A DNA stretch of 64,000 bases, from assembly GCA_022402565.1 (NCBI GenBank), contig JAKRSC010000005.1, positions 87,240 to 151,239 of the forward strand, given 5' to 3'. Shown here one piece after another: positions 56,831 through 64,000 of the stretch (the first letter of the stretch is position 1; each line of letters begins with the position of its first letter). This DNA comes from Hydrotalea sp. Its GTDB lineage: Bacteria; Bacteroidota; Bacteroidia; Chitinophagales; Chitinophagaceae. Both the position numbers and the translations under genes were made by a program. The notes beneath the pieces were generated by a model. The model had not been told where the DNA came from. It was given only the letters and a program-made list of their open reading frames with translations, and did not search any database.

Positions 56831-57889
56831 ATGGCAAATGCTAAGATTCAGGCTTTATTGGGCGACAAAGCAGAATATCTGCTCTCGCACAAGTCCAGCA
56901 CCATCGATCAGTCACAACTGCACCTCCCATCTTCAGATCATGTTGATAAAATTTGGACATACAGTAATAGAAATGCGCAGGTTTTGCGTTCCATGCAACA
57001 ATTGTTAGGAACTGGTCGCTTGGCTGATACTGGCTATTGCAGCATTTTCCCAGTTGACCAGGGTATTGAGCACAGCGGTGGTTCTGCATTCTCACCCAAC
57101 CCAATGTATTTTGATCCTGAAAACATCATCAAACTAGCTATTGAGGGCGGTTGCAATGGAGTTGCTTCAACTTATGGTGTTCTTGGTATTATGAGTCGTA
57201 AGTATGCTCACCGCATTCCATTTATTGTAAAAATTAACCACAACGAATTCCTAAGCATGCCAAATAAGTTTGATCAAACTATGTTTGGAACTGTTAAGAG
57301 TGCTTGGAATATGGGCGCTGTTGGTGTAGGTGCAACAATCTACTGGGGAAGCGCTGAAAGTGCTCGTCAATTAAAAGAAGTTGCTGAGGCTTTTGAATAT
57401 GCACATGAATTGGGAATGTGTACCATCCTTTGGTGTTATACCCGCAATAATGGCTTTAAAGTAGATGGTATTGATTACCATACCAGCGCCGATTTAACAG
57501 GACAAGCTAACCATTTGGGTGTTACATTACAAGCCGATATTATCAAGCAAAAATTACCAACTAATAATGGCGGATACCTTGCTACAAAACACGGTAAAAC
57601 CAATAAGTTGGTGTACGAAAAATTAACTACAGACCATCCAATTGATCTTACTCGCTATCAGTTAGCCAACTGCTACATGGGAAGAGTTGGATTAATTAAT
57701 AGTGGTGGCGAAAGCAAGGGCGCATCTGACTTAGCTGAAGCAGTTGAAACAGCGGTTATTAATAAGAGAGCAGGCGGTATGGGATTGATTTTAGGAAGAA
57801 AAGCATTCCAGAAATCCTTCGCTGAAGGCGTAGAATTGCTTCAATCTGTTCAGGATGTGTATCTAGATGAAAGCATCACGATTGCTTAA
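56831..57889 (+). CDS. Class I fructose-bisphosphate aldolase
   Basis: From ATG 56831 the enzyme has 352 residues. Features of the DhnA/archaeal-type class I aldolase are visible: [35 protein letters not shown] (near 155), [12 protein letters not shown], and [20 protein letters not shown] at the phosphate-binding end. It cleaves fructose-1,6-bisphosphate through a Schiff base. The frame is open to 56735, but the promoter-like TATATTTG and the conserved length favour 56831. A strong inverted repeat follows. Confidence 0.92.
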
Positions 57890-57913
57890 TATAGAAAAAC
57901 GTATCTTGCAATA

Positions 57914-57943
57914 ACAATGGCGAACTAATTGGTTCGCCATTGT
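57914..57943 (+). terminator. Inverted repeat after the aldolase gene, likely terminator
   Basis: Perfect 12-bp arms ACAATGGCGAAC / GTTCGCCATTGT with a 6-nt loop, 25 nt after the stop. The T run (TTTTTTG) begins about 10 nt later, so termination efficiency is uncertain. Confidence 0.65.
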
Positions 57944-57996
57944 ACCCTATATGTTTTTTGTATGGGTAAGCTTGTTGAACGTAACCCCCTTTTGGA

Positions 57997-58929
57997 ATGA
58001 AAAAAGAACATACTGAAGATATTGAGTCGCGCTTAACTGGTGAAGATGTGAAACCGGCAGAGCAAGAAGTGCAAGAGGAAAAAAGAAGTTGGTTCAAGAG
58101 AAAACGTCAAGGTATTTTAACTTCTACAGCCGATAAGAAAGAGTTCCCCGAGGGACTTTGGAATAAATGTCCATCTTGTAACCATATTTGTACCACTCAG
58201 GAGCTTAAAGCAGCGCTTTTTGTATGCCCTAGCTGCAATTATCACCATAGAATTGGCAGCAAAGAATACTTCGAAATTTTATTCGATAAAAACGAATACA
58301 CTCCGCTATTCGATGAAATTAAAAGTAAGGACCAACTTGGTTTTACCGACCTTAAAAACTATCAGAAGCGCCTTGATGAAATTCATGCCAAAACCGACCT
58401 CAAAGACTCTATGCGAGTTGCTGTAGGAAAAGTACATGGTCAGGAAATTGTTGTGGCGTGTATGGATTTTGAATTCATTGGTGGATCATTGGGTAGTGTT
58501 ATGGGTGAAAAGTTTAGTCGTGCTGTAGATTATTGCATTCAGCATAAACTTCCTTACATGGTTATTAGCAAAAGTGGTGGTGCAAGAATGATGGAAAGCG
58601 CATTCAGTCTCATGCAGCTCGCAAAAACAAGTGGTAAACTGGCACAACTGAGTGATGCAAAACTCCCCTACATTTCTATGCTTACAGATCCAACCTTTGG
58701 TGGTATTTCTGCCAGCTTTGGTATGTTAGGCGATTTAAATATTGCTGAACCCGGTGCTTTAATTGGTTTTGCTGGACCCAGAGTTATAAAAGAAGCCACT
58801 AAAAAAGACCTTCCTCCTGGATTTCAAAAAAGTGAATTTTTACTAGAACATGGTTTCTTAGATTTCATTGTTGATAGAAAGCAATTGAAAGAAAAGATAG
58901 CCCAACTGGTAACTTTGTTTCAACATTAA
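57997..58929 (+). CDS. accD: Acetyl-CoA carboxylase carboxyltransferase subunit beta
   Basis: The 310-residue protein has a zinc ribbon LWNKCPSCNHICTTQ with a second pair in ALFVCPSCNYHHRIG (about residues 54-77), then the crotonase-like carboxyltransferase core: SKSGGARMMESAFSLMQLAK, SDAKLPYISMLTDPTFGGIS and GFAGPRVIKEATKKDLP. With AccA it transfers carboxyl from biotin to acetyl-CoA, the first step of fatty acid synthesis. The acidic N-terminal 35 residues are extra. accA is not adjacent. Confidence 0.96.
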   Translation: MKKEHTEDIESRLTGEDVKPAEQEVQEEKRSWFKRKRQGILTSTADKKEFPEGLWNKCPSCNHICTTQELKAALFVCPSCNYHHRIGSKEYFEILFDKNEYTPLFDEIKSKDQLGFTDLKNYQKRLDEIHAKTDLKDSMRVAVGKVHGQEIVVACMDFEFIGGSLGSVMGEKFSRAVDYCIQHKLPYMVISKSGGARMMESAFSLMQLAKTSGKLAQLSDAKLPYISMLTDPTFGGISASFGMLGDLNIAEPGALIGFAGPRVIKEATKKDLPPGFQKSEFLLEHGFLDFIVDRKQLKEKIAQLVTLFQH

Positions 58930-58954
58930 TATTGGTTGTACTTTTACACTGCAC

Positions 58955-58993
58955 AATTCCCCAATAAGGGCCATTAGCCTATCTTGGGGAATT
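58955..58993 (+). promoter_or_regulatory. Inverted repeat AATTCCCCAA-N19-TTGGGGAATT before smpB
   Basis: Perfect 10-bp arms around a 19-nt loop that can itself pair through AGGGC/GCCT. There is no T run, and the right arm ends 22 nt before the smpB ATG, so it may be an accD terminator variant or an RNA structure near the smpB start. Confidence 0.45.
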
Positions 58994-59015
58994 GATGTTA
59001 TAGCTGTTGATATTC

Positions 59016-59444
59016 ATGAACAATAAACAAGCATATTTCAATTACCTTATTGAAGATAAGTACCAAGCCGGAATTGTACTCTTGGGAACAGAGGTGAAAA
59101 GTATTCGCGAGGGCAAAGTAAGCTTTCAGGATTCTTACTGTTTATTTCATGATGGCGAGTTGTGGTTACGTGGATTATATATTGCTGAATACAAAATGGG
59201 TACTGTCAACAACCACATTGCCGTTCATGACAGAAAGCTGTTGCTTACTAAAAGAGAACTAAAAAAGTTACAGGCTGCTATGAAAGAAAAGGGTTACACC
59301 ATTGTTCCACTTTCTATCTTTTTCAATGACAAGAATTTAGTGAAAATTGAAATTGGATTAGGCAAAGGAAAGAAAACCCACGACAAACGAGAAACCATCA
59401 AAGCGCGTGATACGCAACGAGAAATCAAGCGTTACCTAAAGTAA
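59016..59444 (+). CDS. smpB: SsrA-binding protein SmpB
   Basis: From ATG 59016 the 142-residue protein shows the SmpB OB-fold: NKQAYFNYLIEDKYQAGIVL, LLGTEVKSIREGKVSFQDSY and the C-terminal basic tail GKGKKTHDKRETIKARDTQR ending in KRYLK. It partners tmRNA in trans-translation, rescuing stalled ribosomes. The frame also reads from TTG 59007, but ATG is standard. The tmRNA gene is not in this window. It directly abuts the convergent 143-aa membrane protein gene. Confidence 0.96.
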   Translation: MNNKQAYFNYLIEDKYQAGIVLLGTEVKSIREGKVSFQDSYCLFHDGELWLRGLYIAEYKMGTVNNHIAVHDRKLLLTKRELKKLQAAMKEKGYTIVPLSIFFNDKNLVKIEIGLGKGKKTHDKRETIKARDTQREIKRYLK

Positions 59445-59876
59445 TTAACTATACTTGCTTTTCTTTTCAGGCTCATAAGAAAGCTGTTCCAGCAATGCTT
59501 CAGGAGTTGGCTGGGAGGTAATTGAAACCGCTGCCGCCAACATTCCTCCCAACAACAAGAGAGACATAATACATTCATCCCATCTTAGCCAATAACCCCA
59601 CCAATATTTCACTTTGGCTTTTTCCGGGGCCGACTTATCATAGATCACCACCACTTCTTGTCCATTCTGGAATTGTCTGAAAATATACTCATCTTGAATG
59701 ACAAACTCCTTCCATCCAGTATGAAACCTAATCTGATGAACAGTTGTTCCTGAAGAATCAACCACTTGCTCTACTACTCCATTTGCTTGTTCTCCATCAA
59801 TAAAATCTGGCTGCCGTGTAAACAGTACATACACTCCGAAGCATACAACGTACAAAACAATGGCTAATGATTTCAA
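59445..59876 (-). CDS. DUF3592-like membrane protein, full-length copy
   Basis: The 143-residue protein has an N-terminal transmembrane helix (about 3-17), a small beta domain (HQIRFHTGWKEFVIQDEYIF, GQEVVVIYDKSAPEKAKVKY) and a second helix at about 101-118, with an acidic cytoplasmic tail. The layout resembles DUF3592 proteins. The start is TTG at 59876: an in-frame stop lies five codons upstream and no ATG fits. The first 76 codons are duplicated at 61521-61748 in the same orientation. Its stop abuts the smpB stop. Confidence 0.7.
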   Translation of the reverse strand: MKSLAIVLYVVCFGVYVLFTRQPDFIDGEQANGVVEQVVDSSGTTVHQIRFHTGWKEFVIQDEYIFRQFQNGQEVVVIYDKSAPEKAKVKYWWGYWLRWDECIMSLLLLGGMLAAAVSITSQPTPEALLEQLSYEPEKKSKYS

Positions 59877-60070
59877 TACATTCGGTTAAATGATGAAAGG
59901 CAAAGTAAAGGATTAAAAACCTTGGGATTTATTGTTTAATCGAATTTTATTTATTCCTAAAAGTTTTATACCATCTTCTCTAAAAGTGACTTTACAACTT
60001 TCATGTTTGAATGAAAATAATCAAGAAATAAGTCTGTAATTTGTAAGACCAGATTAAAACTTTAGGTGTT

Positions 60071-60754
60071 ATGCATAAAATGATATCACTCAACACTTCA
60101 TTTTTATTCACTTTTTTAGTTTTAACATCAATTGTGTCGGCTCAATTTAGCAGAACTGAAAAATCAAATTTTTTCCGAGTTGGTGTTTCTCATAGTCTAC
60201 CATTGATTAGTGCAGGGGCATATTTTTTTGGTGATGCTTCTTATTGGGGAACTTTCCGAGGAACAATTGATTTTGGTATGACACATTCTTTAAAAAATGG
60301 ATTTGCAATAACTAATTTAATAAAATCAACTATTCGCAACCCCCTTATTGGAAGAAGTTTACAAAGAACACCTGAAGGTAGTAGAGATCGTGCGAGGTTA
60401 ATTTTCGATTACGAATTTTCTTTAAATAAACTATTTTTTAAAGACGAGAAATATATTGGATACATTGGACTAACAGGTGGGTTAAATTTTATTGGTGTGA
60501 ATTATAAAGCTAGGGACCTAGTGCCTGTTACAAACTTTTCACCTTGGGCTGCAGCCGTTGGTTATGGCATTGAAAAACACAGTCTCATGTTTCCATCTTT
60601 TGGCATAAACATTGGCGTTCCTATTAGTAAAAATAAGCTAACACATATAGAAATTGAATGCGATTATCTCCCCTATTATGATCAATCACGCACATTCAAC
60701 AATATGGGATTTATTAGGGGCGGCCTCGGGATTGTAAGATTTATTAAAATGTAA
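60071..60754 (+). CDS. Secreted protein, probable outer-membrane beta-barrel (cargo 1)
   Basis: The 227-residue product has a signal peptide (ISLNTSFLFTFLVLTSIVSA/Q) and then amphipathic strands such as RVGVSHSLPLISAGAYFFGD, KYIGYIGLTGGLNFIGVNYK and HIEIECDYLPYYD, finishing GGLGIVRFIKM, a pattern of small beta-barrels. No family recognised. It is followed after 4 nt by another signal-peptide protein, making a two-gene unit. It lies between the full-length membrane protein gene and the smc-tail relic. Confidence 0.6.
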   Translation: MHKMISLNTSFLFTFLVLTSIVSAQFSRTEKSNFFRVGVSHSLPLISAGAYFFGDASYWGTFRGTIDFGMTHSLKNGFAITNLIKSTIRNPLIGRSLQRTPEGSRDRARLIFDYEFSLNKLFFKDEKYIGYIGLTGGLNFIGVNYKARDLVPVTNFSPWAAAVGYGIEKHSLMFPSFGINIGVPISKNKLTHIEIECDYLPYYDQSRTFNNMGFIRGGLGIVRFIKM

Positions 60755-60758
60755 ACAA

Positions 60759-61424
60759 ATGAAAAACAGAATCATTCTTTGCTTATTCATTCTAACATTT
60801 ATTCCATGTTTTGTTTTAATTGCACAACAAACAGAAAATAAATTAAAGGTTCAGACTTTTTTTGGTTGGAGTGGCAACTTTTATGTTAAATCGCCTGATT
60901 ATAATACTCCTAACCCAAATGAAAGACGTTTTTTTAGGAAAGATTTTTCGGGTACTGGTGCAGGTTTTGATATAAGTTATCAAATTGGAAAAAGAGGAGC
61001 AATTGGCCTAGGTTATGCCAGGTCTGTTAATAAAGGTACTCAAGATTGGGAGGTTGCAATTGGCTCAAATACACTAGCGCTACAAAGTTTTGATACTAGA
61101 CATGAGAATGTTTTTGTAAACTTATTCTATGAACATAAACACAATTTAAAAAACGAATTCTATGTTTCTTGGCAAGTTGGTTTCTCTTGGTTTTATTCAA
61201 ATCAACAAGAAATATCTATCTCGAACAATGACCCATTAAGAACTCTCTATACATTTCAGGAAAGGAAAAGAATGGAAAATGGAGGCGTAATTAGTGGAAT
61301 TGAATTTGGAAGAAAATTAAGTTCTCATGTTGACCTAGGTATCAGAACAAGGCTATATTGGATAACTCCTACAGGCTTATTTGAGTCTATTTTTGTTTCC
61401 CCAGTGTTGTCTGTAAAATTATAA
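60759..61424 (+). CDS. Secreted protein, probable outer-membrane beta-barrel (cargo 1)
   Basis: The 221-residue product has a signal peptide (IILCLFILTFIPCFVLIA/Q) and alternating-strand sequence with GAGFDISYQIGKRGAIGLGY, ENVFVNLFYEHKHNLKNEFY and VSWQVGFSWFYSNQQE, ending IFVSPVLSVKL, i.e. a beta-barrel-like end with a hydrophobic C-terminal strand. No family recognised. It partners the gene at 60071. Its TAA stop is formed with the first bases of the A run of the smc-terminator relic, so cargo 1 ends exactly where the repeat starts. Confidence 0.6.
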   Translation: MKNRIILCLFILTFIPCFVLIAQQTENKLKVQTFFGWSGNFYVKSPDYNTPNPNERRFFRKDFSGTGAGFDISYQIGKRGAIGLGYARSVNKGTQDWEVAIGSNTLALQSFDTRHENVFVNLFYEHKHNLKNEFYVSWQVGFSWFYSNQQEISISNNDPLRTLYTFQERKRMENGGVISGIEFGRKLSSHVDLGIRTRLYWITPTGLFESIFVSPVLSVKL

Positions 61425-61493
61425 AAAAAGCCCCCGCAGAAAACAGCATGGGCGGTTATAGAACAGATTAAATCAGACGATAATTAAGTGATC
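61423..61493 (-). repeat. Relic of the smc 3' end and terminator (71 bp)
   Basis: This 71-bp stretch aligns without gaps to 63260-63330 and is identical at 65 of 71 positions. The original contains the smc terminator and the last codons of smc; here the hairpin has lost pairs (two mismatches), so it is probably a weak terminator. It is joined, after 27 nt, to the truncated copy of the 143-aa gene. Confidence 0.85.
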
Positions 61494-61517
61494 TCAATAA
61501 GGGTGAAACTAAATTAT

Positions 61518-61748
61518 TTACACCACTTCTTGTCCTTTCTCGAATTGTCGGAAAATATACTCATCCTGAATTACAAACTCCTTCCATCCAGTATGAAACC
61601 TAATCTGATAAACAGATGCACCAGCAGAATCAACCACTTGCTCTACTACTCCATTTGCTTGTTCTCCATCAATAAAATCTGGCTGCCGTGTAAACAGTAC
61701 ATACACTCCGAAGCATACAACGTACAAAACAATGGCTAATGATTTCAA
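61518..61748 (-). pseudogene. Truncated copy of the DUF3592-like gene
   Basis: The frame encodes 76 residues almost identical to residues 1-76 of the gene at 59445, with a few changes such as SAGASVY for SSGTTVH and FEKGQEVV for FQNGQEVV. The DNA alignment 61521-61748 against 59649-59876 is gapless over 228 nt and begins exactly at the TTG start codon. The remaining 67 residues, including the second membrane helix, are missing and replaced by 27 nt of other sequence and the smc-terminator relic. It is most likely a recombination remnant, although a short anchored peptide could still be made. Confidence 0.85.
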
Positions 61749-61986
61749 AGTTTACAATTAATGTTATGAATAATTAACTTGACAAAGAACGCTGAATTTC
61801 TTATCATAAGCATTTAAATAGTTTTTTCAACTTGATCGACTATTTACATGCCTTCATTCAATCACCAAATTTTTGTGAAGAAAGTTAAAAATTCGAAATA
61901 TTATGATAGATTTATAATGAAATTGATTTGATTAAGATGTTTTTACCAAAACAAATCAGCGATTTATAACCCTAAAACTAATCAAA

Positions 61987-62490
61987 ATGAAAAAAATTAT
62001 TCTGTTAATCGCAATTATTGCATTTCAAGTTTCAACTGGTTACTCACAAAAAATTACAGATGGTGCCACCATAGACCTTGACGGGCTTTCAGTAACTTTT
62101 AACATTTTAAATAAAGAATCAATTTCAGTAGGGAATAAAAATTTCGACCGATATAAAGTCTCAGCTACACTGGTAAACAATACAGGAAAAAACTTGGGGT
62201 TTCGCTTAAATAGCTATCCTCAAATAGTTTCAAATACAGAACTGGTTGAATTGAATTGTGTGAATGCAACTGGAGCAAGACAAACATCCAAAAGACTTAA
62301 ACTTAAATTGAATACACATCTTGTACAAGCCACTTACTCAGCCATGAATAAAGATGGTAAACTTCAAAATAATATCTTAACCGTTACAGCAGGATACTAT
62401 CTAGATAATGGTGCATCTGTAAAAGACGAAGCAATTTTCATTGTTCCAGAAGGGGAAGAACCCAATGTAACAGTTAGAAAAACTATGTAA
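61987..62490 (+). CDS. Secreted protein, unknown function (cargo 2)
   Basis: The 167-residue product has a signal peptide (KKIILLIAIIAFQVSTGYS/Q) and a beta-rich body (TIDLDGLSVTFNILNKESIS, RYKVSATLVNNTGKNLGFRL, NNILTVTAGYYLDNG) that looks like one or two immunoglobulin-like or beta-sandwich domains. No family recognised. A 238-nt gap precedes it, in which an inverted repeat AAATAGT/ACTATTT lies around 61816-61847. It forms a two-gene unit with the DUF3667 gene 44 nt downstream. Confidence 0.6.
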   Translation: MKKIILLIAIIAFQVSTGYSQKITDGATIDLDGLSVTFNILNKESISVGNKNFDRYKVSATLVNNTGKNLGFRLNSYPQIVSNTELVELNCVNATGARQTSKRLKLKLNTHLVQATYSAMNKDGKLQNNILTVTAGYYLDNGASVKDEAIFIVPEGEEPNVTVRKTM

Positions 62491-62534
62491 TACCAAAACT
62501 CAATTTACAGAAATTAGCTTACTAACTTATTGCG

Positions 62535-63245
62535 ATGATAACATGTAAGAATTGTGGTCATATTTTCGCTGGGAATTATTGCAACAATTGTGGTCAGTCT
62601 TCAAAAACAAAAAGAATTGATGTCAAGTTTATCTGGACAGATATCGAACATGGACTACTCCATGTAAATAAAACGCTGTTTCATTCATTAAAAAATTTAT
62701 TTCTCGATCCAGGTAGAACTATCAAGGAATTTTTGGAAGGAAAAAGGATTCATCATATCATGCCAATATCTTTATGCATCATATTGGCTACTATTTATGC
62801 GGTGCTGTATCATGTTTTAAGAATTAATTTATCTACTTCACATGAAAGAAATGTAGAGGAAGCAACTGAATATTTTTTTAGTCACTATTATTGGTTTGTA
62901 GTTGCTACCATTCCAATTTACGCTTTTACTACAAAACTGTTTTTTAGGTTCAAGCAATATAATTATTGGGAGTATCTTGTTGTTGCTGCATACAAACTTT
63001 CGCAAAGACTTTTTGTGCACATCCTTTCAATTCCTATTTTTTATATGCTAACAACAGATGCTGCCATAAAAAACTTTCTTTTAGTGCTTTCGTGTATAGA
63101 TGTTGGGCTTATCATTTGGACCAATCTTCAGTTTTTTAATCAGCTATCCAGATTTAAGATAATTCTCTATTCAATTTTGAGTACACTTTTATTTACACTC
63201 ATTATTTTAATCCTGATAACATTAATTCTAATTATGGTAAGCTGA
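62535..63245 (+). CDS. DUF3667 membrane protein with zinc ribbon (cargo 2)
   Basis: The 236-residue protein starts with a zinc ribbon, TCKNCGHIFAGNYCNNCGQS, then RIDVKFIWTDIEHGLLHVNK and LFLDPGRTIKEFLEGKRIHH, the signature of DUF3667. Four or five transmembrane helices follow (from about residue 73). This is a Bacteroidota membrane family of unknown function. It is the last gene before the real smc terminator and ends 14 nt before it. Confidence 0.85.
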   Translation: MITCKNCGHIFAGNYCNNCGQSSKTKRIDVKFIWTDIEHGLLHVNKTLFHSLKNLFLDPGRTIKEFLEGKRIHHIMPISLCIILATIYAVLYHVLRINLSTSHERNVEEATEYFFSHYYWFVVATIPIYAFTTKLFFRFKQYNYWEYLVVAAYKLSQRLFVHILSIPIFYMLTTDAAIKNFLLVLSCIDVGLIIWTNLQFFNQLSRFKIILYSILSTLLFTLIILILITLILIMVS

Positions 63246-63259
63246 GCCCATAATTGCTC

Positions 63260-63330
63260 AAAAAAAGCCCCCGCTGAAAACAGCAGGGGCGGTTATAGAA
63301 CGGATTAAAACAGACGTTAATTAAGCGATC
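63260..63330 (-). terminator. smc terminator and last codons (parent of the 61423 relic)
   Basis: On the minus strand GCCCCTGCTG-TTTT-CAGCGGGGGC followed by seven T is fully paired (one T-G wobble), a strong terminator at 63290-63260. The adjoining 63317-63330 encodes the end of SMC. The whole 71 bp is repeated at 61423-61493. Confidence 0.88.
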
Positions 63331-64000
63331 GAAAATCGACCGGTACTAATTTACTTACACCAGGTTCTTGCATGGTCACTCCATAAATGACATCCACAGC
63401 ACCCATCGTCATTTTGTTGTGGGTTACAATAATGAACTGTGAATTTTCGCTGAATTGTTTGATCATATTGGTGAACTTACCAACGTTGGCATCATCCAAT
63501 GGCGCATCTACCTCATCCAAAATACAGAATGGAGCCGGCTTAATCAGGTAAATAGAAAACAATAAGGCCGTTGCGGTTAAAGTCTTCTCTCCCCCGCTTA
63601 ATTGGGTAATAGACGATGGACGCTTACCCTTAGGCTTGGCAATAATATCAATTCCTGTTTCAGCCAAGTTCTCCGGATTTTCAAGCACTAAATCGGCAGT
63701 ATCCTCCTCGGTGAACAATGCTTTAAACACTTTCTGGAAATTATCACGCACCTGATTGAATGTCTCCAAGAATTGTTGGTTAGCGGTAGCCTCCACCTCT
63801 TGAATGGTTTGAAGCAAACTTTCCTTAGCAGTGGTTAAATCATTTTTTTGCTCTAAAATGAAATCGTAGCGCTTCTTCATTTCTTGAAAGGCTTCAATAG
63901 CAGTTGGGTTTACTTCACCCATATTCTCTAAGCGCTTTTTTAATCGGTCAGACGATGCCTGTAACTCTTCAACCGTATCTGTACCAGTTCTAGCCTGATC
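63317..64000 (-). CDS. smc: Chromosome segregation protein SMC, C-terminal part
   Basis: The frame runs off the right edge, giving the last 227 residues. A coiled-coil end (EELQASSDRLKKRLEN, FQEMKKRYDFILEQKNDLTT) leads into the C-terminal ATPase half: signature motif ITQLSGGEKTLTATALLF, Walker B PFCILDEVDAPLDDANV and the H-loop FIIVTHNKMTMGAVDVIYG. Together with the N-terminal half (outside the window) this forms the condensin-like ATPase that organises the chromosome. A Met at 63922 is internal, not a start. Confidence 0.95.
   Translation of the reverse strand, partial: DQARTGTDTVEELQASSDRLKKRLENMGEVNPTAIEAFQEMKKRYDFILEQKNDLTTAKESLLQTIQEVEATANQQFLETFNQVRDNFQKVFKALFTEEDTADLVLENPENLAETGIDIIAKPKGKRPSSITQLSGGEKTLTATALLFSIYLIKPAPFCILDEVDAPLDDANVGKFTNMIKQFSENSQFIIVTHNKMTMGAVDVIYGVTMQEPGVSKLVPVDFRSLN

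Follow-up and report, generated by a model that had tools for sequence, protein, structure and literature searches.

Several described systems place different genes at one position of a bacterial genome by recombination. The dimorphic variable segments of microdiversity loci have been explained by homology-assisted illegitimate recombination (PMC2884548), and the T6SS orphan immunity arrays of Vibrio cholerae arise by successive displacement, for which homology-facilitated illegitimate recombination has been proposed (PMC5361080); the process itself is described in PMC2884548, PMC5361080 and PMC3240628. The locus presented here, from Hydrotalea sp., may be a further example of such recombination-driven variable loci. 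It lies in a window of 64,000 nucleotides, by which we mean the whole stretch of DNA that was analysed. Like the dimorphic segments as presented in PMC2884548, its two cargos are short and unrelated and occupy a single site of an otherwise conserved backbone, for the most part without known mobile elements; there, however, the alternatives are found in different strains, whereas here a single genome has both, separated by a relic. The V. cholerae arrays as described in PMC5361080 would share with it a new module anchored by flank homology and old material stacked behind, but here there is no known effector-immunity function, each cargo seems complete and both flanks have left relics.

Replacement flexible genomic islands also hold different genes in the same place through homologous recombination in similar flanks, and border divergence is likewise raised and mostly synonymous; in contrast, those islands replace whole surface-structure gene clusters instead of stacking them, and were shown by strain comparison (PMC4033161). 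Transformation merodiploids of Streptococcus pneumoniae, in the account of PMC3784515, similarly carry two versions of a locus in tandem through exchange, but these span ~100 to ~900 kb and form via repeats, whereas the unit here is about 1.9 kb with a 5-nt join. In appearance the stacked cargos are a mark left when strains exchanged DNA in the ordinary way, not the product of a dedicated gene-swapping machine.

Organization of the locus

Table 1 Features of the interval between smpB and smc, with the basis of each assignment
Feature	Position	Strand	Basis or remark
smpB, left core neighbour	59007..59444	+	convergent with membrane gene; Pfam SmpB 1.4e-57
Full-length 143-aa DUF3592-like membrane protein gene, TTG start	59445..59876	-	ORF list
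Cargo 1, 1546 bp, GC 32.3%	59877..61422	+	divergent intergenic stretch and two ORFs
c1a, cargo 1 gene a, 227 aa	60071..60754	+	signal-like N-terminus by eye
c1b, cargo 1 gene b, 221 aa	60759..61424	+	signal-like N-terminus, outer-membrane-barrel-like by eye
smc-end relic, weakened terminator and ~15 last codons	61423..61525	-	85/103 versus 63260-63362
Point where smc relic meets truncated membrane gene, with 5-nt microhomology CACCA	61521..61525	.	alignments
Truncated membrane gene copy, codons 1-76	61521..61748	-	217/228 versus 59649-59876
Cargo 2, 1511 bp, GC 30.6%	61749..63259	+	sequence comparison
c2a, cargo 2 gene a, 167 aa	61987..62490	+	signal-like N-terminus by eye
c2b, cargo 2 gene b, 236 aa	62535..63245	+	Pfam DUF3667 9.5e-11; N-terminal CxxC zinc-ribbon-like motif by eye
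Intact smc terminator	63260..63316	-	fold energy
Real smc 3' end, gene continues beyond window	63317..64000	-	SMC_N 1.4e-29

A blastn self-comparison of the 64-kb window (dust on, E ≤ 1e-4) returned two direct repeats and one 30-nt palindrome, to which a repeat scan of 57000-64000 added short 25-30 nt matches at 73-80% and nothing else. One direct repeat joins the membrane gene and its truncated copy without gaps (217/228 identical, E 4e-100), and the other joins 61423-61493 to the end of smc at 63260-63330 (65/71 identical, E 2e-23). A chance origin of the two is excluded, and the repeat blocks reported in the first-pass annotation of this DNA are real; the cargo lengths and edges are also as given there. 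The 27 nt that it had listed between the smc relic and the truncated gene are decayed smc sequence rather than a spacer, since the smc copy extends in register to 61525 (61508-61525 versus 63345-63362, 16/18). Over its total length of 103 nt, which includes a 14-nt patch with 10/14 positions mismatched, the relic remains 85/103 identical to the native end, and it adjoins the truncated gene at a common 5-mer. As in an illegitimate join, one end of the joint thus has little homology, namely the five nucleotides CACCA.

Judged by its sequence, the smc relic is dead, because its stop codon has been lost (TAA to TAT), the conserved smc residues PVDF have become SPLL, and its hairpin is weakened to -11.6 kcal/mol, compared with -21.8 kcal/mol for the native segment 63255-63300 (smc strand). 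These changes bear directly on whether the arrangement is an artefact of assembly or of a strain mixture. The genome is in 35 contigs and an assembler could join two alleles; however, the private substitutions, lost stop and decayed hairpin of the relic are absent from the native copies, and since merging two working alleles does not create such changes, we regard an artefact as very improbable.

The claim that the two cargos carry different genes was borne out by comparison of their DNA. The alignment score was 27 on the same strand (shuffled mean 27.6, maximum 44) and 30 on the opposite strand (shuffled mean 27.3, maximum 37), so that similarity is no higher than in shuffled controls and the interiors are not detectably paralogous. 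A plain tandem duplication with diverged interiors is rejected because the interiors are not alike.

Divergence of the relics and origin of the arrangement

How, then, did two unrelated cargos come to lie in one interval? The join itself can be read from the DNA: it brought the smc end up against codon 76 of the membrane gene at the 5-nt microhomology and left relics of both flanks between the cargos. The relics are ~10% diverged from their native copies, save for the 123 nt beside cargo 2; these show no difference from the full gene, so their renewal was more recent. All 11 mismatches of the 228-nt repeat are confined to the distal 105 nt (hypergeometric P 1.5e-4; for an equally long mismatch-free run anywhere in the repeat, P 0.0015), and the older relic parts, counted without the 14-nt scrambled smc patch, show 19/194 differences against 0/123 beside cargo 2 (Fisher P 1e-4). 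This mosaic divergence therefore took two events or more: the illegitimate join came first, and an exchange or gene conversion followed at a later time. In codons 42-76 of the truncated gene, 5 synonymous and 6 nonsynonymous changes were assigned by hand (per-site ratio 0.29), giving P 0.047 in a neutrality test that is weak and ignores transition bias. The residues found in the family at the membrane-gene differences do not tell which copy is older.

We hypothesize, at roughly even chances, that the two cargos occupied the slot in different strains of the lineage and were stacked via ordinary recombination. The interval from the smc terminator to the start of the DUF3592-like gene would be a tolerated insertion slot, in which two different gene pairs resided in different strains before being stacked. 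Incoming DNA with the other cargo would have found its anchor in homology on one side, within smc or within the membrane gene, while its opposite side was joined illegitimately. Such an event would be homology-facilitated illegitimate recombination, or an unequal exchange of equivalent effect; afterwards the edge at the membrane gene would have undergone gene conversion or been exchanged a second time. No recombinase belonging to the locus would be needed. This course agrees with the microhomology junction, at which the relics of both flanks keep register, with the dead smc relic beside an intact native smc and terminator, with the mosaic divergence and with the unrelated interiors. The identical 123-nt tract would fit long-homology joining to a hypothetical donor at the other end, and the pattern in codons 42-76 would be expected if some of the copy's divergence built up while it was a working allele of a different strain. 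On the other hand, gene conversion alone could account for the identical tract, which need not involve cargo exchange, and decay of the smc relic shows that some of the divergence postdates the join, so that divergence between strains need not be assumed. Genes of the dprA and comEC types are present, but competence is not demonstrated by them because the same domain searches were positive in 11/14 and 10/14 control genomes, respectively; a search for Ku found none.

A different course of events is possible, although we would not call it probable. It would begin with a tandem duplication of the cargo-1 locus, from codon 76 of the membrane gene to ~15 codons inside smc, and cargo 2 would later have replaced the second interior by a double crossover with a cargo-2 strain, the left crossover falling inside the truncated gene. 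These two events cover the junction, the ~10% drift, the mismatch-free tract bordering cargo 2 and the difference between the interiors, and the right edge of cargo 1 is indeed old and drifted (6/71 differences). No remnant of cargo 1 surrounds cargo 2, though clean crossovers would leave none, and the selection-like changes in the truncated gene, as read by the weak test above, would be unexpected for a pure pseudogene. The relic records the join in its microhomology, its age in drift and a later exchange in the identical tract. Stacked alternatives with a datable relic in one genome are, in our judgement, rarely caught, and the locus offers a testable case of small gene pairs moving between core genes without mobile elements.

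The interval in related genomes

The membrane protein matches DUF3592 below the Pfam cut-off (E 1.4e-4; 22.9 bits against 25.3), and homologues of its gene were found in 71/294 family genomes searched, own included. A search of genome contigs with the protein gave a single partial match, of 33 residues, in Pontibacter. In relatives the gene is the usual neighbour of smc, typically at a distance of about 95 bp; in two species of the same genus it adjoins lipA and smc lies elsewhere. The gap exceeds 400 bp in 5 of 33 intervals from relatives, the other 28 measuring 2-260 bp, compared with 0/34 for two control intervals. The occupied intervals hold three kinds of content, found in 3 of 15 genera: a Kir-type channel, ORF6N and the candidate defence pair HEC-01, a label without a hit among the papers listed in a literature search. 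Among the papers listed, nothing bore on the smc–membrane-gene site itself. Gene content thus supports the interval as an apparent variable slot across genera, and these insertions in three other genera favour the stacking hypothesis; within this Hydrotalea species, we infer that alternative cargos occupy the slot. The slot beside smc, with its candidate defence pair in one relative, could guide a search for uncharacterised modules.

The first-pass annotation had proposed a variable slot with fixed edges. An occasional insertion spot in the family is upheld by the counts above, and of the two outcomes named there as telling against the slot, neither was seen: relatives do not share a uniform arrangement with conserved interiors, and the cargos are not detectably paralogous. 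Fixed edges as a general property found no support. In all five occupied relatives the main ORFs have the opposite orientation to the Hydrotalea cargos, and between 5 and 58 nt separate their ends from the start of the membrane gene (a distance of ORF ends, not insertion edges); copies of the flanks or stacking are seen in none of the five, which also weighs against the stacking hypothesis, and no recombinase was recognised among four proteins from these intervals. Is a dedicated cassette system with fixed boundaries, integron-like or otherwise site-specific, at work in Hydrotalea? The edges of the two cargos do coincide to the nucleotide, and their lengths are similar, but neither a recombinase nor an integrase gene occurs among the nine ORFs of 57997-63922 (Pfam), and 57000-64000 holds no attachment-site-like repeat at both cargo edges besides the two gene-derived blocks. 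Given also the reversed contents and unduplicated flanks in relatives, such a system seems barely plausible.

Cargo genes

The four cargo genes differ widely in distribution. Of the 293 other family genomes searched, none had a match to c1a at E ≤ 0.001; c1b, which has a paralogue at G000:C14, matched in 13/294 (own included; three weakly, E about 3e-4 to 5e-4), c2a in 20/294 (own included), and the DUF3667 family of c2b is common (209/294). No shared ancestry of c1a and c1b was seen (best BLASTP E 9.6). Among the four proteins Pfam revealed no recombinase, NCBIfam gave only matches far under cut-off, and PADLOC gave no match at E ≤ 0.1, so the cargos were rejected as known defence genes. Likewise rejected was an identity as phage or plasmid genes, for which c1b and c2a were the queries: neither gave a relative in plasmids or in viral contigs, where a single-protein query reaches close relatives only.

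These results bear on integration of the Campbell type, in which a circle carrying the 5' end of the membrane gene, a cargo and the end of smc, closed at CACCA, would integrate through one crossover, located in either the membrane gene or smc. One step would yield the same gene order with two different cargos, and crossover plus conversion inside the membrane gene would yield a mosaic like that observed. However, within the duplicated unit no vector, replication or mobilisation gene was recognised, the match of c1b to TraF_2 falling short of the cut-off (12.4 of 25 bits), and with the plasmid and viral results above we regard this route as improbable.

Single-sequence structure predictions were too poor for use (mean pLDDT 34 for c1b and 50 for c2a). 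In profile searches against solved structures c1b had no match, and the two matches of c2a were at chance level (E 0.43 and 0.94). It seems unlikely to us that the slot is family-wide, takes small defence or surface gene pairs, and here accumulated two that were both kept by selection; if this were true, cargo 1 and cargo 2 would be new surface or defence modules. A scan of 59400-63400 with the Bacteroidota promoter motif gave no two-part match and one -7-type match, which lies inside c1b.

A recombination scar between smc and a membrane protein gene

Between smc and a 143-aa membrane protein gene lies a genuine and well-preserved recombination scar, in an insertion slot that is occupied now and then; the mechanism behind the scar is ordinary. 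The window belongs to contig C30 of a genome of 2.98 Mb and 35 contigs. The membrane gene has a Pfam match to DUF3592 that lies below the cut-off (E 1.4e-4), and all four cargo genes are directed towards smc. Both cargos are AT-rich, with GC contents of 32.3% (cargo 1) and 30.6% (cargo 2). The window as a whole is at 37.2%, smpB at 36.8%, and smc and the membrane gene at 41%. The gap before accD contains an imperfect palindrome that is probably a terminator.

Features of the smc-membrane gene locus, in + strand order
Feature	Coordinates	Strand	Description
Palindrome	57914-57943		30 nt, imperfect
accD
smpB
Membrane gene	59445-59876	-	full length
Cargo 1	59877-61422		c1a (227 aa), c1b (221 aa)
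smc relic	61423-61525	-	copy of native smc end
Scrambled patch	61494-61507		14 nt, within smc relic
Truncated membrane gene	61521-61748	-	partial copy
Cargo 2	61749-63259		c2a (167 aa), c2b (236 aa)
Native smc end	63260-63362	-

Structure and divergence of the junction

The first-pass annotation had described two repeat blocks, one from the end of smc and one from the membrane gene, and both are borne out by repeat search and alignment. The 27-nt spacer that it placed between them is not, since the smc copy continues in register to the end of the relic, with 16/18 matches to native smc over the last 18 nt. The scrambled patch is mismatched at 10/14 positions and register is kept on both sides of it. 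The relic and the truncated membrane gene overlap at CACCA, which is common to both parent sequences; this overlap and the in-register smc copy thus identify a direct join of smc, ~15 codons from its end, to codon 76 of the membrane gene through a 5-nt microhomology. The relic has lost the stop and the PVDF residues, which are kept in 33 of 34 smc tails from relatives (the 34th reads quite differently), and its terminator segment folds at -11.6 kcal/mol versus -21.8 kcal/mol for the native one.

With the 14-nt patch excluded post hoc, after inspection, 8/89 positions of the relic disagree with native smc, and the distal part of the truncated gene differs from the full copy at 11/105, rates that are not different (Fisher P 0.81). 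The part of the truncated gene next to cargo 2 shows 0/123 differences against the pooled 19/194 (P 1e-4). A single old event would not yield this mosaic, and the comparison points to renewal of the cargo-2-side edge of the truncated gene, either by conversion between membrane-gene copies or by a later homologous exchange that also imported cargo 2. Codons 42-76 of the truncated gene carry five synonymous and six nonsynonymous changes by manual assignment (per-site ratio 0.29, P 0.047 versus neutrality), which hints weakly that some of the divergence may have accumulated in a functional allele. The residues that the family carries at the altered positions do not discriminate which copy of the membrane gene is ancestral.

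How did two unlike cargos come to lie side by side? We favour, with about an even chance of its being correct, a homology-assisted illegitimate join that would have stacked two alternative occupants of the slot, after which conversion or exchange would have altered the edge at the membrane gene. A tandem duplication in which one interior was later replaced comes close behind, though it is less likely than not. Stacking and duplication with replacement alike presuppose strains in which other cargo lay between the same edges. Either route therefore implies a slot that varies in the population, and both can do without a dedicated enzyme. Genes of the dprA and comEC types are present in this genome, compatible with DNA uptake, and the same profiles match in 11/14 and 10/14 control genomes, respectively; Ku was not found in this genome and is matched in 1/14 controls. 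Earlier reports describe events of the same kinds in other settings (PMC5361080, PMC3784515, PMC2884548, PMC4033161, PMC3240628). No title addressing the smc-membrane gene site appeared in literature on DUF3592/DUF3667 or, among the matches listed, on Chitinophagaceae cassettes and recombination. The scar is of moderate interest, as a record of successive events and for its cargo of unknown function.

The slot in related genomes

The membrane gene is present in 71/294 family genomes (own included) and 28/101 genera. Wider stretches were taken for 62 of the 70 other genomes, the eight lowest-scoring being left out. Upstream smc on the same strand was found in 33/62, at a median gap of 95 bp; 28/62 have no smc within the fetched stretch (relocated or past the contig end) and one has it on the other side. 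The variable cargo slot proposed by the first-pass annotation stood up to this comparison across genera, in that content varies, with three kinds of insert among five of 33 gaps exceeding 400 bp and the remaining 28 spanning 2-260 bp. Three species of genus g53 (L096, L098, L102) carry a Kir-type potassium channel gene, a call based on one of the three proteins (IRK_C 8e-18), and their sister is empty at 98 bp (four species fetched). Genome G215 (g87) carries an ORF6N protein (1.1e-32; sisters 83 and 109 bp). The slot of G199 (g48; L119) holds a pair matching HEC-01A (8.7e-98) and HEC-01B (3.2e-56), a candidate defence system named per the PADLOC library alone; its sisters have 24, 63 and 160 bp.

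Control intervals exceeded 400 bp in 0/18 (membrane gene-smpB) and 0/16 (smpB-accD) cases (Fisher P 0.025), a soft comparison: the genomes do not count as independent samples, with a single genus supplying three of the five occupied sites; the orientation of the genes is not uniform; and controls are measurable only with smpB inside the fetched stretch (18/62), so that bigger insertions or relocations on the smpB side go uncounted. A hairpin and T run directly follow smc, before the cargo, at four of the five occupied sites (not G199), and none of the five carries flank copies. Among the sites compared, stacking is confined to this genome and slot occupation recurs.

Cargo genes and their relatives

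Both cargo 1 proteins have signal-like N-termini. c1a has no Pfam match and no match in the other 293 family genomes; c1b is outer-membrane-barrel-like by eye, with a TraF_2 match below the Pfam cut-off, and is matched in 13/294 genomes including its own (three weakly), with a paralogue at G000:C14. No c1a relative was found in the 11 c1b loci read (tblastn E <= 1). An ORF of 419-459 aa adjoins c1b relatives in 4/11 loci (L010, L012, L014, L023; one is this genome), with a lipoprotein-like start, by eye, in 3/4.

In cargo 2, c2a has a signal-like N-terminus and matches in 20/294 genomes including its own, and c2b is a DUF3667 protein (Pfam 9.5e-11) of a type common in the family (209/294). On contig G043:C240 (L142), a 60%-identical c2a relative is flanked on both sides by c2b-like (DUF3667-type) genes in opposite orientation, and the gene association of cargo 2 therefore recurs at least once. 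PADLOC models matched none of the four cargo proteins.

Matches to c1a, c1b and c2a are all absent from the two same-genus species, G001 and G002, which nevertheless carry c2b-type proteins elsewhere in the genome. In both (L006, L007, L072, L074) the membrane gene lies apart from smc, beside what we take from its translation to be lipA, and smc stands in another place, followed by a GTPase gene that presumably resembles prfC.
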